From a virus: DNA of 37,844 nt. Position 1 is the stretch's first letter; each line of letters begins with the position of its first letter. Positions 17,841-22,685 of the stretch are shown piece by piece. The notes beneath the pieces were generated by a model, which was not told where the DNA came from, made no database searches, and worked only from the letters and a program-made list of their open reading frames with translations. The DNA lies in the IMG/VR virus record IMGVR_UViG_3300006805_000069, positions 1 to 37,844 of that record. One strand, 5' to 3'. The translations under genes and the position numbers were made by a program.

Positions 17841-18062
17841 TCAACCTGCTGCTGGATATTCGACAAGGATATTTGCCGTCATGCCGTCGACCGTCACCCT
17901 GAACGCATCGAAGTCAGCCGAGCTAGAAACTGCATCGACAAACTGCTTAAGCGATATGCCGCTTTCTTCCATCCAGTGCGTCGTGATGGCGAACCCAAGA
18001 TTTGGACCAGCCGCCCGCAAATCTTTCAGATTTTGAACCAAGCCATCAAGAGTCGGAGTCAT
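17841..18062 (-). CDS. Small acidic protein, unknown function
   Basis: 73 residues from the ATG at 18062, which overlaps the upstream stop as ATGA and has GAAGAGG six bases upstream. Helix-rich first half (TLDGLVQNLKDLRAAGPNLG), beta end (FDAFRVTVDGMTANILVEYP). No recognised domain. Confidence 0.5.
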   Translation of the reverse strand: MTPTLDGLVQNLKDLRAAGPNLGFAITTHWMEESGISLKQFVDAVSSSADFDAFRVTVDGMTANILVEYPAAG

Positions 18063-18589
18063 GTCAGCCTCTTCGTTGTATCGCCAGACTTCAGCCACTT
18101 CTTAAACTGCTCAACCGTCATCTGCATCACGCCGCCGATACGAGCATGACCCTTGCCGTCCGAGAACGCTTTTTCGTAAGTGTCGATGGCCGATGCTGCG
18201 TTATCAAATCCCAGCATGGCCTTGTGCTCATCAAAGCGTTGCGACTTGTGATCAACTTGATCAACCACAAACACAAGGTGCGAGAGCGGGTGCGGACCCA
18301 TGTAGATGTCAACGTGGTCGCCATCGGCGCCAGTTGACCGCTTGATGTAGCCGTAGTGCGCGGGCATCTGGACCTTCCAAGGTTTGCCCTTTGGATCAAC
18401 CCCAGACCGCGCGGACCCCTTGGGGTTTTCGAGCGTGATGTCTAATCCTCTCCAGACCAGATGCCCTTTCGTGTAGTTGCCTGCGAGCTTCGCGGCATCT
18501 GAAGGATTACGATCAACGTCACCGGCCGCCATGTCGATATGCTGCCGAGCAATTTTGAGAGCGCGCGTCACAACGTCAGGACCGCTCAT
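18059..18589 (-). CDS. Phage inorganic-pyrophosphatase-like (InPase) domain protein
   Basis: 176 residues from the ATG at 18589; the open frame extends upstream but overlaps the preceding gene. The order GNYTKGHLVWRGLDITLENP, PWKVQMPAHYGYIKRSTGAD, GDHVDIYMGP, LVFVVDQVDHKSQRFDEHKA, MLGFDNAASAIDTYEKAFSD matches the phage 'Inorganic Pyrophosphatase' domain (PF18823 type). It is known mostly as part of polyvalent proteins. Acidic residues of the DGDHVDIY core are kept. Actual pyrophosphatase activity is unproven for the family. Here the domain stands alone between packaging and portal genes. Confidence 0.6.
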   Translation of the reverse strand: MSGPDVVTRALKIARQHIDMAAGDVDRNPSDAAKLAGNYTKGHLVWRGLDITLENPKGSARSGVDPKGKPWKVQMPAHYGYIKRSTGADGDHVDIYMGPHPLSHLVFVVDQVDHKSQRFDEHKAMLGFDNAASAIDTYEKAFSDGKGHARIGGVMQMTVEQFKKWLKSGDTTKRLT

Positions 18590-18590
18590 C

Positions 18591-18773
18591 TCAACACCCC
18601 GAGTATTTCGAACGATCCCGCACGATCTCCCGCCGCCACGCTGGCGTCTCATCCGCCCGCATCGCTAGCGCCTCTTCGATTAGGATAACGGCTTGCTCTT
18701 GAACTGGACGATCTGTCGAGGCTTTGATCTTTTCGACGATTGGAGCAGGGATCTCGAAAAGTTCATTGCTCAT
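18591..18773 (-). CDS. Small charged protein
   Basis: 60 residues: MSNELFEIPAPIVEKIKAST, a helix (EQAVILIEEALAMRA), then a basic end (RREIVRDRSKYSGC). Starts with an ATGA overlap on the gene above and ends two bases into the next start region. No domain recognised. Confidence 0.5.
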   Translation of the reverse strand: MSNELFEIPAPIVEKIKASTDRPVQEQAVILIEEALAMRADETPAWRREIVRDRSKYSGC

Positions 18774-19027
18774 GCTGCGGCCACGTCTGACAATGCAGCC
18801 ATAAGACGTTCGCTAGCTATTTTCGAAATGCTAGGCCCTATTTCTTCATTCTTTGCTAGCAGAAAAACATGCCCATTTTTGAAAAGATCAAGGCGACCAT
18901 TAACCCAATCAATTACAAATTTAGCCTCTTTATTTGTCTCGTGCGTCCACTGTAATACCCCAGGCATCAACATATCACGAATCATACCAAGATTTAACTT
19001 CTGCGTGTCAACATCTTCAGCGTCCAT
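18770..19027 (-). CDS. Small protein, paralogue B of the gene after terL
   Basis: 85 residues from the ATG at 19027, with GAGGTG six bases upstream. Segments FVIDWVNGRLDLFKNGHVFL and a helical Ala-rich C-terminus (SERLMAALSDVAAA) parallel NVDYVNGTLTLVKN and GRLNSTMKIAA in the 87-residue protein at 19427-19690. The pair are divergent paralogues. Function unknown. Confidence 0.5.
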   Translation of the reverse strand: MDAEDVDTQKLNLGMIRDMLMPGVLQWTHETNKEAKFVIDWVNGRLDLFKNGHVFLLAKNEEIGPSISKIASERLMAALSDVAAA

Positions 19028-19049
19028 CACTACACCTCGCAAGATGCGA

Positions 19050-19376
19050 TCAATCCGTCACAACTCGGAGTGCAGGCTTTTCCGCTTTCGCTGCATCAAG
19101 TTCTTGCCGCCAACGCTTCGACTCTTCTTCGTTCAAAGAGCGCCTGCCGAGCCGTAGATCGTTTACCAGCGTGAACAACCATTTGAACGTGTAGTCAGGC
19201 AGCGTCGGAATAGCTTCAAGAACGATAGCGTCGAATTCAGCGTTTACTTCTGGTGGCGATGGATCAGCGAACAACAGCGACTTGAGTTTCGCGTTATCTT
19301 CGCCACTTAGAAATTCGCTTGTGCGCCGCCGCCAATTCGACTTGTCGTTGATGAAACGTGGGTCAACATCCATCAT
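19050..19376 (-). CDS. Uncharacterised protein downstream of terminase
   Basis: 108 residues, charged and helical: DPRFINDKSNWRRRTSEFLS, LPDYTFKWLFTLVNDLRLGR, NEEESKRWRQELDAAKAEKP. The ATG at 19376 shares its A with the stop of a relic of the terL 3' end (19376-19417), an arrangement (TAATG) typical of coupling to terL. This is why the first of the two adjacent ATGs was chosen. The relic indicates that this gene once directly followed terL. Confidence 0.55.
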   Translation of the reverse strand: MMDVDPRFINDKSNWRRRTSEFLSGEDNAKLKSLLFADPSPPEVNAEFDAIVLEAIPTLPDYTFKWLFTLVNDLRLGRRSLNEEESKRWRQELDAAKAEKPALRVVTD

Positions 19377-19417
19377 TAAACCTCATAAAGTGGATCGAGC
19401 CTCGTCGTGCCGTAATG
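19376..19417 (-). pseudogene. Relic of a terL 3' end
   Basis: Minus-strand codons read HYGTTRLDPLYEV and stop, against HGTTRLDPLYEV and stop at the true TerL C-terminus (19719-19757). Eleven residues are identical, yet nine of the eleven codons differ, all synonymously. An in-frame TAA lies two codons upstream, so it is not translated as part of TerL. It is best explained as the end of a related terL left by recombination. Confidence 0.75.
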
Positions 19418-19426
19418 GGCTTACGG

Positions 19427-19690
19427 TTACGCCGCAATCTTCATGGTAGAATTTAACCGCCCAACAACGAGAGCCGTGATTTCATCGTCAGACATCCCCA
19501 AAATCTCATGAGATGCCGCCAAAAGAGTAGATTCAGGCTCTTTTTTTTCATCCCGCTTATAGTTTTTGACAAGTGTCAAAGTTCCGTTCACATAATCAAC
19601 GTTGAGATCAACTTCATGGCAGTTGTGAGCAAGGCGAGCGCAGACTACTGGAATGATTTTTTCTTTTGCATCAATCAGCTTTGAAATCAT
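19427..19690 (-). CDS. Small protein inserted after terL, paralogue A
   Basis: 87 residues, with GGAGA nine bases before the ATG. KEKIIPVVCARLAHNCHEVD, NVDYVNGTLTLVKNYKRD, then a helical acidic/hydrophobic end (SDDEITALVVGRLNST, MKIAA). Resembles the 85-residue protein at 18770-19027. It sits between the real TerL stop and the terL relic, so it appears to be part of the inserted segment (a moron-like addition). Confidence 0.5.
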   Translation of the reverse strand: MISKLIDAKEKIIPVVCARLAHNCHEVDLNVDYVNGTLTLVKNYKRDEKKEPESTLLAASHEILGMSDDEITALVVGRLNSTMKIAA

Positions 19691-19718
19691 CGACTGTCTC
19701 CATCAATCAGATTGCGAA

Positions 19719-22685
19719 TCATACTTCATACAGCGGGTCTAGTCGTGTCGTTCCGTGCTGCGCTTGGATGGCGCGAACTTGGTCTCTTTCGTCCCGGCGA
19801 ATGGCAAACCCGACTTGACGCAAGTGCTTGAGCGCTTGCGTCGTCGAGTCCGTCAAATCCTTGAAGCGACCATTCGGGAACATCGCGGTTTCGTCAATGA
19901 CGAGCTGTGCCCAATCACGAGGAATCAACTCACTTTCCCGATCTTTCGGGTTTCGGTGGCTGACCGGAACCCCAACCATACCGTCTGCGAACAAGTGGAT
20001 CTGCGCAACGGCACGCGCGTACTTGTCGCCGCCTTTTGGATCGATGAGTTCAACGCCCCAGCCTTCGTTAGCGTACAGCCGACGCATCTCGTTGCCAACG
20101 TCGATCCCCGAGGCTTTCGCTTCGATCAGGAGCATATCGACGTGGTGACGTTTGCACTCATGCGCCACCCACTCAACTAGGCCCCACTCTTTCTTGGCGC
20201 GGGCTTTGTAATCTAGTTCGTGTTCGCCGGGCTCCCGCTCGACATCGGCGCCGTGGATCTCCAAATGCTTGCGCCAAGCGCCGAGCATCATGATCTTTGG
20301 GTTGTCCCGCTCATCAACGTAAGCGCCCCACACCGTGAAGCCTGAAGGATCGTTGCGTTCGTTCTTCGTGTAAGCAGAGTCCAACGAAGCAACCACATAC
20401 TCCATCGGCGGAGGTGGAGCCCCGATCGGCACATGGATATACTGCCACCAGTCGCGTTTAAACAACCCGCCACCACGAGGCTCAGGCGTTTGTTGATACT
20501 GACCAGCCCACATGAAGGCGTTGCGCCGGAAGCGCTGTAGAACGTTCTCCCCGTAGCGCTCAGGCCATGCCAGCTCGCCAATCTCTGTTCGAGGATCTTC
20601 CCAAATGATCTTGCGACCATTTTTGTCTCGCCCGAGGCACGTTTGGCAAACGCGGCCGTCAAATTCCATCGGAATTAAAAGGTGTACATAGTCGTCTTCG
20701 TTTTCGATGACGTGGCCAGACACATCACAGTTATGGGCAGTTATGAGGCCACATACAAAATCGTGACACGGAGTTTCAAGGTCATAAACCTTACCTGCGT
20801 ATGTTGATCTCTCGATGTTAGATATGCGAACAAAAAGCTGTTTTCCATCAGCAGACAATCTATTCGCCTTGTATCGCGGACGAACACCAGGCTCATCACA
20901 CAACCAAGGGGCAGACCAGAAGTCGAACCTAAGTTCATAGGCTTGGTTCGTTGATAATTTAACCTCACGCCCCTGTTGTGGGCCACTTGCAATTACGCAA
21001 ATCCCACCTTTGCCAGTTTGCCCTTTTAAGACGCCAGCAACAATGCCCATGCGCAGCATAGCTCTCTGAAGGCTTGAGAGCAGAGCAAGTGATACAGACC
21101 CAATACGAGCTGTGTTACCAATAGTAGACCCGTCACCGCGCCAGTATCCTATAACAAGCTCACGTAAAAATTCTGGGTCCAGCCTAACTGCCCAATCAGG
21201 CAAGCACTTATTGAGCGCCCCCGTCCCGAAATTGTTCAAAAATTTCGCAACTTGGTATGACGTGATGAAAACGTTGGCTGTGCTAAATTTACTGAAACTT
21301 AAATGAACAGGTATTCCATAGTCTGCGAACAAGTCTCTGATGTCTTGAACATAATCAAGTTCATCCTTGTGAAACGTAAGCACGATGCGACTAAGGCGTG
21401 TTCGACCTTCACCGATGCACCCCTCAGCCAACCAGTAACCCACGAAACGCCAGAACCTAGGATCAGCAAGTATTGCCTCGTCGATTGACCGGCATTTCTT
21501 TTTGGCAATCCCAAATGCTACCAAATATTGGTCAACCTGCTGGCGGTACTTCAAGCCAACAATTTCGGCTATCTCGCGGCTGCTATGGCCAGCATCCACA
21601 AGCGGCTGAAAAATCTCTTTCGAAAGATGAGTTCGGGTTCCTGTTGTTGTCCCCCTGAAAGTCGCAGGGACATCCTCGTCTTCCTTCGGCCATATAGCTT
21701 GCAACTCAGCAGTCGTTGTCTGACGCTGATCAACTGAAATTATAAGCTGATGGCTTCTCGTTAACTTTCCAGCCTCCACCCATCCATCCGATGTCAAAAT
21801 AGGATGGTTTGACGTGACACGCAAAGGCTCGCAATAACCAGATGCTCGAATACTTATTGTCTCTCCTACGTAGTCGCGGCTTGCGACAGCAACGACCTTT
21901 TGAATTCCTTGGCTGGTGACAACTGGATCACCTGCCCGAATTTCATCTGCTCTAATGATTGACATGTCGGACAGAATACCAGAGTCCGGCAATAAACACT
22001 CATTAACTCTTTGCATAATAACAATAATCGCAGACTTTTGAAGGTCGTTTAGACGGTTCGACATTGCCTCATCAAACCATCTTACAGTCTTAACGCGAAT
22101 AACGTCGCTTTCCCCATCCGCAAGGTTGTGGGGGTCGTCACATAGGACGCGATCAGCGCGCTCGCCCGTACCTACTCCGCCCACGGATGAAGCAAACTTC
22201 CACCCAGTTTTATCGTTCGACACCTTGACGACACCAACGCCCGTCGTCTTGAACTTGTCGCCCCAAAGCTCTTGGAACTTCTTCGACTGGATGATGTCTC
22301 TGAATTTGCCGTTGTCACGTTCCGTCAGATGAGAGCCATACGAAAACGCGATGTACCGCATAGAAGTGAGACCCATCGGCCCCCACTCCCAAGCAGGAAA
22401 AAAAACGTTACAGATCAACGATTTACTGAAGCCCGGCGGAACGTTGATCAGAAGGCGCGTTATGTCTCCACGAGTGACAGCTTCAAGGTGAGCGCAAATC
22501 GCCCTAATCGCCCACCCATCAACGAACTTCGTCTTAGGCTCTAAGATTGGCCAGAAGTATTTGACGAACTCGTAAAGCCCACCGGGAGCCTGTTGTTTTG
22601 CCCGGTTCTTACGGCGCAACAACTCTTTCTTGATCTCAATGCGTTTTAATAAAAGCTCGCGGCGCTTAGCCTTGAGAGACGACAC
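19719..22685 (-). CDS. terL: Terminase large subunit with intein
   Basis: 988 residues as encoded; removal of the intein (residues 230-652) leaves 565, normal for TerL. ATPase: Walker A-like NVPPGFSKS (81-89), Walker B VLCDDP (180-185), coupling motif IIVIMQRVNE (220-229). Nuclease: YVVASLDSA with D769, LLIEAKASG with E855, and FKDLTDSTTQA around 941-951. The protein pumps DNA into the prohead through the portal and cuts the concatemer. It lies next to terS and upstream of portal, as usual. Splicing is required for activity because the intein separates the ATPase motifs from the rest. Confidence 0.92.
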   Translation of the reverse strand: MSSLKAKRRELLLKRIEIKKELLRRKNRAKQQAPGGLYEFVKYFWPILEPKTKFVDGWAIRAICAHLEAVTRGDITRLLINVPPGFSKSLICNVFFPAWEWGPMGLTSMRYIAFSYGSHLTERDNGKFRDIIQSKKFQELWGDKFKTTGVGVVKVSNDKTGWKFASSVGGVGTGERADRVLCDDPHNLADGESDVIRVKTVRWFDEAMSNRLNDLQKSAIIVIMQRVNECLLPDSGILSDMSIIRADEIRAGDPVVTSQGIQKVVAVASRDYVGETISIRASGYCEPLRVTSNHPILTSDGWVEAGKLTRSHQLIISVDQRQTTTAELQAIWPKEDEDVPATFRGTTTGTRTHLSKEIFQPLVDAGHSSREIAEIVGLKYRQQVDQYLVAFGIAKKKCRSIDEAILADPRFWRFVGYWLAEGCIGEGRTRLSRIVLTFHKDELDYVQDIRDLFADYGIPVHLSFSKFSTANVFITSYQVAKFLNNFGTGALNKCLPDWAVRLDPEFLRELVIGYWRGDGSTIGNTARIGSVSLALLSSLQRAMLRMGIVAGVLKGQTGKGGICVIASGPQQGREVKLSTNQAYELRFDFWSAPWLCDEPGVRPRYKANRLSADGKQLFVRISNIERSTYAGKVYDLETPCHDFVCGLITAHNCDVSGHVIENEDDYVHLLIPMEFDGRVCQTCLGRDKNGRKIIWEDPRTEIGELAWPERYGENVLQRFRRNAFMWAGQYQQTPEPRGGGLFKRDWWQYIHVPIGAPPPPMEYVVASLDSAYTKNERNDPSGFTVWGAYVDERDNPKIMMLGAWRKHLEIHGADVEREPGEHELDYKARAKKEWGLVEWVAHECKRHHVDMLLIEAKASGIDVGNEMRRLYANEGWGVELIDPKGGDKYARAVAQIHLFADGMVGVPVSHRNPKDRESELIPRDWAQLVIDETAMFPNGRFKDLTDSTTQALKHLRQVGFAIRRDERDQVRAIQAQHGTTRLDPLYEV
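20730..21998 (-). mobile_element. Intein with LAGLIDADG homing endonuclease in TerL
   Basis: 423 codons in frame. The N-terminal residue is Cys230 (block A CLLPDSGIL). Block B is RVTSNHPIL with T291 and H294. LAGLIDADG motifs are FVGYWLAEGC (E421) and LVIGYWRGDGS (D518). Block F is KVYDLETPCHDFVCG (632-646). Block G ends His651-Asn652, followed by Cys653 as the +1 extein residue. A HTH-like stretch at 367-397 (SSREIAEIVGLKYRQQ) may aid DNA binding. All splicing and nuclease residues that I can recognise are intact. Splicing joins MQRVNE to CDVSGH, restoring a usual TerL sequence. Confidence 0.9.

Follow-up and report, generated by a model that had tools for sequence, protein, structure and literature searches.

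Related phages are mosaics that swap blocks of genes with one another by relaxed homologous or illegitimate recombination, and one account favours exchange driven by homology (PMC3945230). Short repeated sequences directly before phage start codons have been described in the cluster K mycobacteriophages, where these start-associated sequences (SAS) form one conserved motif that precedes many genes (PMC3203893). Homing endonuclease islands lie beside terL, the gene for the terminase large subunit (TerL), and both co-conversion by homing nucleases and the use of terL as a home for inteins are documented in phages (PMC10448857 and PMC5050341). Here we describe a locus that resembles each of these systems in some respect: a relic of the 3′ end of terL, which stands behind a small gene downstream of the intact terL in the virus record IMGVR_UViG_3300006805_000069. 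The analysed stretch, referred to as the window, is 37,844 nt long and has a GC content of 55.3%.

The relic is probably a recombination scar, left in a slot downstream of terL whose cargo varies, and kept as a translation start for the gene that follows. As in the mosaicism outlined in PMC3945230, gene blocks appear to have been exchanged and the cargo differs between relatives; unlike what that source describes, the end of the replaced gene can still be read downstream of the window's cargo, and the joint would have formed without homology. The likeness to the SAS of PMC3203893 lies in a short repeated sequence directly before a start codon, but a single diverged coding tail serves one gene here, the pattern for it matching the window twice and only once directly before a start. 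An intein, an adjacent cargo gene and a possible exchange boundary at terL recall the systems of PMC10448857 and PMC5050341, although the inserted frame does not encode any nuclease that could be recognised and about 1 kb separates the joint from the intein. The literature searches made turned up, by title or abstract, no account of a terL end in duplicate.

Two copies of the terL end

The present TerL tail and the relic both end in the eleven residues GTTRLDPLYEV, and nine of the eleven codons differ, all of them synonymously, as a first-pass annotation of the sequence had noticed. A degenerate DNA pattern for these residues has two matches in the window and none when run backward as a control. 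The similarity extends over 14 codons with 12 identical residues, or perhaps over 15 if the TAA upstream of the relic was once CAA. The relic is a partial second copy of the neighbouring gene, comprising 14 codons and a stop with no start codon of its own, and its stop shares one base with the ATG of a 108-residue gene, the TAATG overlap to which the same annotation had drawn attention. The elements concerned are these:

19719..19763, minus strand: present TerL tail, AQHGTTRLDPLYEV-TGA, read from the sequence
19427..19690, minus strand: 87-residue cargo gene, 42.0% GC, no family match, weakly similar to the 90-residue gene
19421..19429, minus strand: junction TAA CCG TAA, the stop of the 87-residue gene followed by a second in-frame stop, read from the sequence
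19376..19420, minus strand: relic of the presumed older terL end, AHYGTTRLDPLYEV-TAA, 45 bases
19381..19384, minus strand: GAGG, Shine-Dalgarno-like, within the relic, predicted duplex energy -6.8 kcal/mol
19050..19376, minus strand: 108-residue gene, no detectable relative, start overlapping the relic stop (TAATG)

Over the last 12 codons including the stop (36 bases), 11 bases differ between the two tails and 11 of these 11 differences are synonymous. Only 31 of the 108 single changes possible in these codons are synonymous, and when 11 base changes were placed at random 200,000 times, no set proved to be synonymous throughout. Codon choice in the two tails is at saturation, differing as much as it would between independent draws: two such draws from the codon use of the window differ on average at 7.9 of 11 codons, and at nine or more in 34% of cases. 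Since differences that are all synonymous at codon saturation imply divergence while both copies were translated TerL ends, the two appear to have been separate for a long time, each selected for the peptide, and the relic seems hardly to have changed since it lost that role. This synonymous divergence excludes a recent local copy of the terL tail, and the first-pass view that the relic derives from a diverged terL held under protein selection, and not from a recent local duplication, is supported.

That the arrangement is an artefact of assembly or a product of chance is highly improbable. The DNA is known solely from metagenome contigs, which leaves room for an artefact, but the arrangement is also present in a second contig, which differs by one mismatch in 11,882 bases, the two possibly coming from one study, and the exact residue pattern occurs twice in the window against no match in the control. 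A DNA pattern for RLDPLYEV followed by a stop matched, among other viral contigs, this near-identical contig alone.

The relic's frame contains no ATG, GTG or TTG codon, and so it is not an open gene. Its direct translation is unlikely, because there is no in-frame start codon, two in-frame stops lie ahead of it and Rfam gave no recoding element. The Rfam search of positions 18500-21000 returned no match at the gathering score, whether to an intron or to a recoding element, and on this result a group I intron or other RNA element near the relic was rejected as a candidate. The relic does, however, stand in the same reading frame as the 87-residue gene behind TAA CCG TAA, as one in three sequences would by chance. 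It can therefore be imagined that readthrough of these stops adds the TerL tail to the 87-residue protein, yielding a working peptide that might act as a decoy or tether for a TerL partner such as the portal. The shared frame and the kept residues would suit such a peptide, as would the C-terminal L/I/V-Y motif with which most TerLs of the group end and an open fusion at another locus (L037, below), but two TAA stops stand in the way and no recoding signal or RNA family was found in Rfam, and we regard this as very improbable. The motif itself is present in 93 of 175 loci, remote prophage terminases included, and in 40 of 62 where M is also allowed; the first of these counts understates the group proper, as the TerL end is miscalled for some remote loci (e.g., L007), and several loci are near-copies. 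Most close TerLs end in LYxV, LYxI or LYxA while the residues before vary freely, and this end is possibly a docking motif, judging from the sequences.

The slot behind terL and the proposed exchange

On the minus strand the genes run in the order terS, terL, 87-residue gene, relic, 108-residue gene, 90-residue gene, 60-residue gene, pyrophosphatase-domain gene and portal. The features outside the immediate junction are as follows:

23370-22687, minus strand: terS
19719..22685, minus strand: terL, terminase large subunit, 988 aa including the intein; matches phrog_38 (2.4e-67) and other terminase families
20730..21998, minus strand: TerL intein, 423 aa, LAGLIDADG type; PF14528, with PF14890 (Intein_splicing) below its curated cut-off
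18770..19042, minus strand: 90-residue gene, 42.9% GC, product weakly homologous to that of the 87-residue gene
18059..18652, minus strand: inorganic pyrophosphatase-domain gene, PF18823 (8.6e-52)
17678-15564, minus strand: portal

The nearest TerL relative found, at locus L013, matches at 65% in the C-terminal part of TerL (L014 and L183 match L013 at 100% there). L013 has a homologue of the pyrophosphatase-domain gene that is 61.7% identical, with a match that starts some 166 bp past the end of terL, and the 87-, 108-, 90- and 60-residue genes are all absent; the pyrophosphatase-domain gene is the next landmark common to L013 and the window. Other relatives have different small frames behind terL, and the region is best read as a variable cargo slot. 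GC content is 42-43% in the 87- and 90-residue frames but 55.3% in the window as a whole, a difference that supports taking the 87-residue gene as foreign-looking cargo. The proteins encoded by these two frames are weakly similar, with 25% identity across 65 positions (E 8e-06 when the two sequences alone were compared), and, both being AT-rich in their genes, may represent two arrivals of one small family.

Relatives of these small proteins are scarce. The 108-residue protein has none in phages, plasmids, 17 virus records or bacterial genomes (2, then 297), and in viral contigs it is matched by the near-identical contig alone; the 87-residue protein likewise has no relatives in phages and, in viral contigs, only that same contig, and the 90-residue protein has none in phages or the 17 virus records. 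Structure models were too poor to search with, at a mean pLDDT of 56.7 for the 87-residue and 57.0 for the 108-residue protein. The first-pass annotation had predicted an ancestral order in which terL is followed directly by the 108-residue gene; no such order was found, and as the 108-residue protein is without relatives the check is empty rather than negative.

In the exchange that we consider probable, two phages would have recombined, one in which terL was followed by the 87-residue gene and one in which it was followed by the 108-residue gene. A related donor phage would have contributed its terL end together with the 87-residue gene. One joint could lie anywhere upstream in homologous DNA, and the other would have fused DNA lying past the 87-residue gene to the 14-15 terminal codons of the resident terL. 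The resident tail, which would be the 3′ end of this lineage's earlier terL, would then have been left behind the cargo as the relic, and would have survived by holding the ribosome-binding site and the overlapping start (GAGGTTTAATG) of the 108-residue gene. The sequence AAGC at the border may have aided the joint, although this is a guess. Because exact in-register matches between the two tails extend over no more than 5 bases, the joint behind the cargo was probably not homologous. The first-pass account of a gene inserted by recombination at the conserved tail thus stands in part: the foreign-looking cargo (42.0% against 55.3% GC) agrees with it, while a crossover by homology at the tail does not fit an alignment whose longest exact in-register match is 5 bases.

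Some integrases restore gene 3′ ends when they integrate, and a short insert flanked by two copies of the tail is what a site-specific element of this kind would leave after restoring the 3′ end of terL. The insert, however, consists of one 87-residue frame with no family match and no integrase, and the tails have no shared identical core beyond the five or fewer identical bases in register, which makes such an element extremely improbable.

The putative start signal of the 108-residue gene

The bases that immediately precede the start of the 108-residue gene (GAGGTTTAATG) are part of the relic, and the GAGG of the relic is spaced 4 nt from the first ATG of the gene and 7 nt from the second. 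The predicted pairing of the relic with the 16S end, at -6.8 kcal/mol, is the second strongest of 14 starts tested, compared with -0.4 kcal/mol for the present TerL tail (GAAGTATGA). The relic therefore probably supplies the best candidate ribosome-binding site of the 108-residue gene, as far as predicted pairing can tell, and this role may explain why it survived.

Other loci bear on the argument in both directions. In L016-L021, L084, L092, L098 and L099 the next start follows terL at a distance of 0-4 bases, and the final codons of terL contain CAGGT or CGGTG; the argument is weakened by L003, L059, L067 and L104, which have GAGGT but no nearby start. Repeats of gene ends in L043, L068, L077 and L181 span a junction, taking in a gene's end and the start of the small gene that follows, and a repeat in L085 covers a gene start. 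Such repeats, in running into the next start, fit a common reason, namely that a joint is kept along with the start signal of the next gene. The repeats lie at 921/1142 in L077, 787/1009 in L181, 2232/2483 in L043, near 1967 (minus) in L068 and at 5589 in L085, and those junction repeats include a ribosome-site-like stretch.

Duplicated ends elsewhere and the weighing of alternatives

Duplicated protein ends were sought by comparing the C-terminal 12 residues plus the stop (13 positions) of every open frame of at least 80 codons with the 3 kb on either side, in 8,686 frames from 176 sources and 2,458 frames from 64 more, or 11,144 frames from 240 sources. The 176-source scan left out the repeating loci L001, L002, L004, L005, L093, L094, L014, L183 and L095, the 64-source scan left out L185 and L194, and degraded relics under the score cut-off would escape detection. 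The two top-ranked cases were both terL ends, those of L037 (70 of 70) and of the window (61 of 67), and the 64 later sources gave no terL-tail case. In L037 (IMG/VR contig 3300020122_000201) the final 59 bases of terL, plus two further bases (2710-2770), recur exactly at 2901-2961. This 61-bp copy lies 191 bp downstream and is fused in frame, with no intervening stop, to a small frame beginning MLERRRFLGLLAAIAAIPPACS, whose resemblance to a twin-arginine signal is below the model cut-off. The order of tail, small frame and tail is that of the window, and in both the terL tail is repeated behind a small frame; the difference is that the copy in L037 is exact over 61 bp and forms an open in-frame fusion. 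The duplication in L037 is known from one contig, and an exact repeat of 61 bp can be a product of assembly.

L037 is relevant to the idea of an old local duplication, in which the tail was copied behind the small gene, translated as an in-frame fusion while it diverged synonymously, and later cut off by two stops. The relic's frame, shared with the 87-residue gene, is what this would predict, in L037 a small frame is fused, with no stop between, to an exact copy of that contig's terL tail, and nine changed codons of eleven exceed every natural pair of TerL tails with eleven identical residues. On the other hand, it needs long selection for identity to the TerL tail on an unrelated small protein, followed by two stops, and no relative with a diverged but still open fusion was met among the 240 sources, so that an old local duplication is unlikely. 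More doubtful still is the notion that the terL end in this phage group is a portable junction module, a C-terminal docking peptide (LYxV and stop) that overlaps a ribosome-binding site and is copied behind small cargo genes during capture; if it were true, the module would sometimes be translated as a fusion, as in L037, and captured proteins may carry TerL's tail.

The intein of TerL provides a different route. It is inserted after MQRVNE, with borders read as CLLPDS...AHN, and has a homing nuclease domain (LAGLIDADG_3, 9.5e-10). Homing into an intein-free terL, cleaved and then repaired from an intein-bearing donor, could have co-converted the 87-residue gene along with terL's 3′ half, the second joint forming irregularly at the former tail. 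The intein is indeed absent from all other fetched loci (tblastn, E 1e-4), and PMC10448857 and PMC5050341 document both co-conversion and terL as an intein home. Yet the joint is about 1 kb away, TerL is 67.4% identical to L013 on each side of the intein, and any activity of the intein is hypothetical; homing as the cause is quite unlikely.

Several observations weigh against the exchange that we favour. It leaves unexplained why the relic stands in the frame of the 87-residue gene. Neither the order of terL followed by the 108-residue gene nor the donor phage was found in the collections searched, the 108-residue protein being without detectable relatives. The intein's two flanks are equally identical to L013 and give no sign of a mosaic boundary, and no clear boundary within terL was seen against L013, L003, L037 or L006. 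The match to the ribosome site is weak evidence, in that 37% of random synonymous tails match it equally well. Finally, among natural TerL pairs with identical last 11 residues (n = 139, from 4,322 aligned pairs at 229 loci, limited to pairs with 20% or more of their 3-residue words in common) at most 6 codons differ, in pairs about 76-77% identical, whereas the window pair has 9. The window pair is more extreme than any natural pair seen, with the proviso that only recognisable relics are noticeable at all, and to derive nine changes from terLs about 70-78% identical is an extrapolation.

The tails of some relatives are much more alike. RGGSSQPLYQV is common to the terL ends of L016-L019, L021, L191, L195 and L196, and among L016-L019 and L021, with terLs of 74-100% identity, no more than 2 of the 11 tail codons vary, a likeness that suggests exchange up to the gene end.

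Overall, the locus is a clear, well-preserved case of phage mosaicism and not a new system. What the scar adds is that the history of the exchange becomes readable, as divergence that is synonymous only would mean that the older copy still functioned as the end of TerL until not long before the exchange took place. In addition, the position of the next gene's putative ribosome site inside the relic suggests why new phage cargo may start exactly at gene ends.

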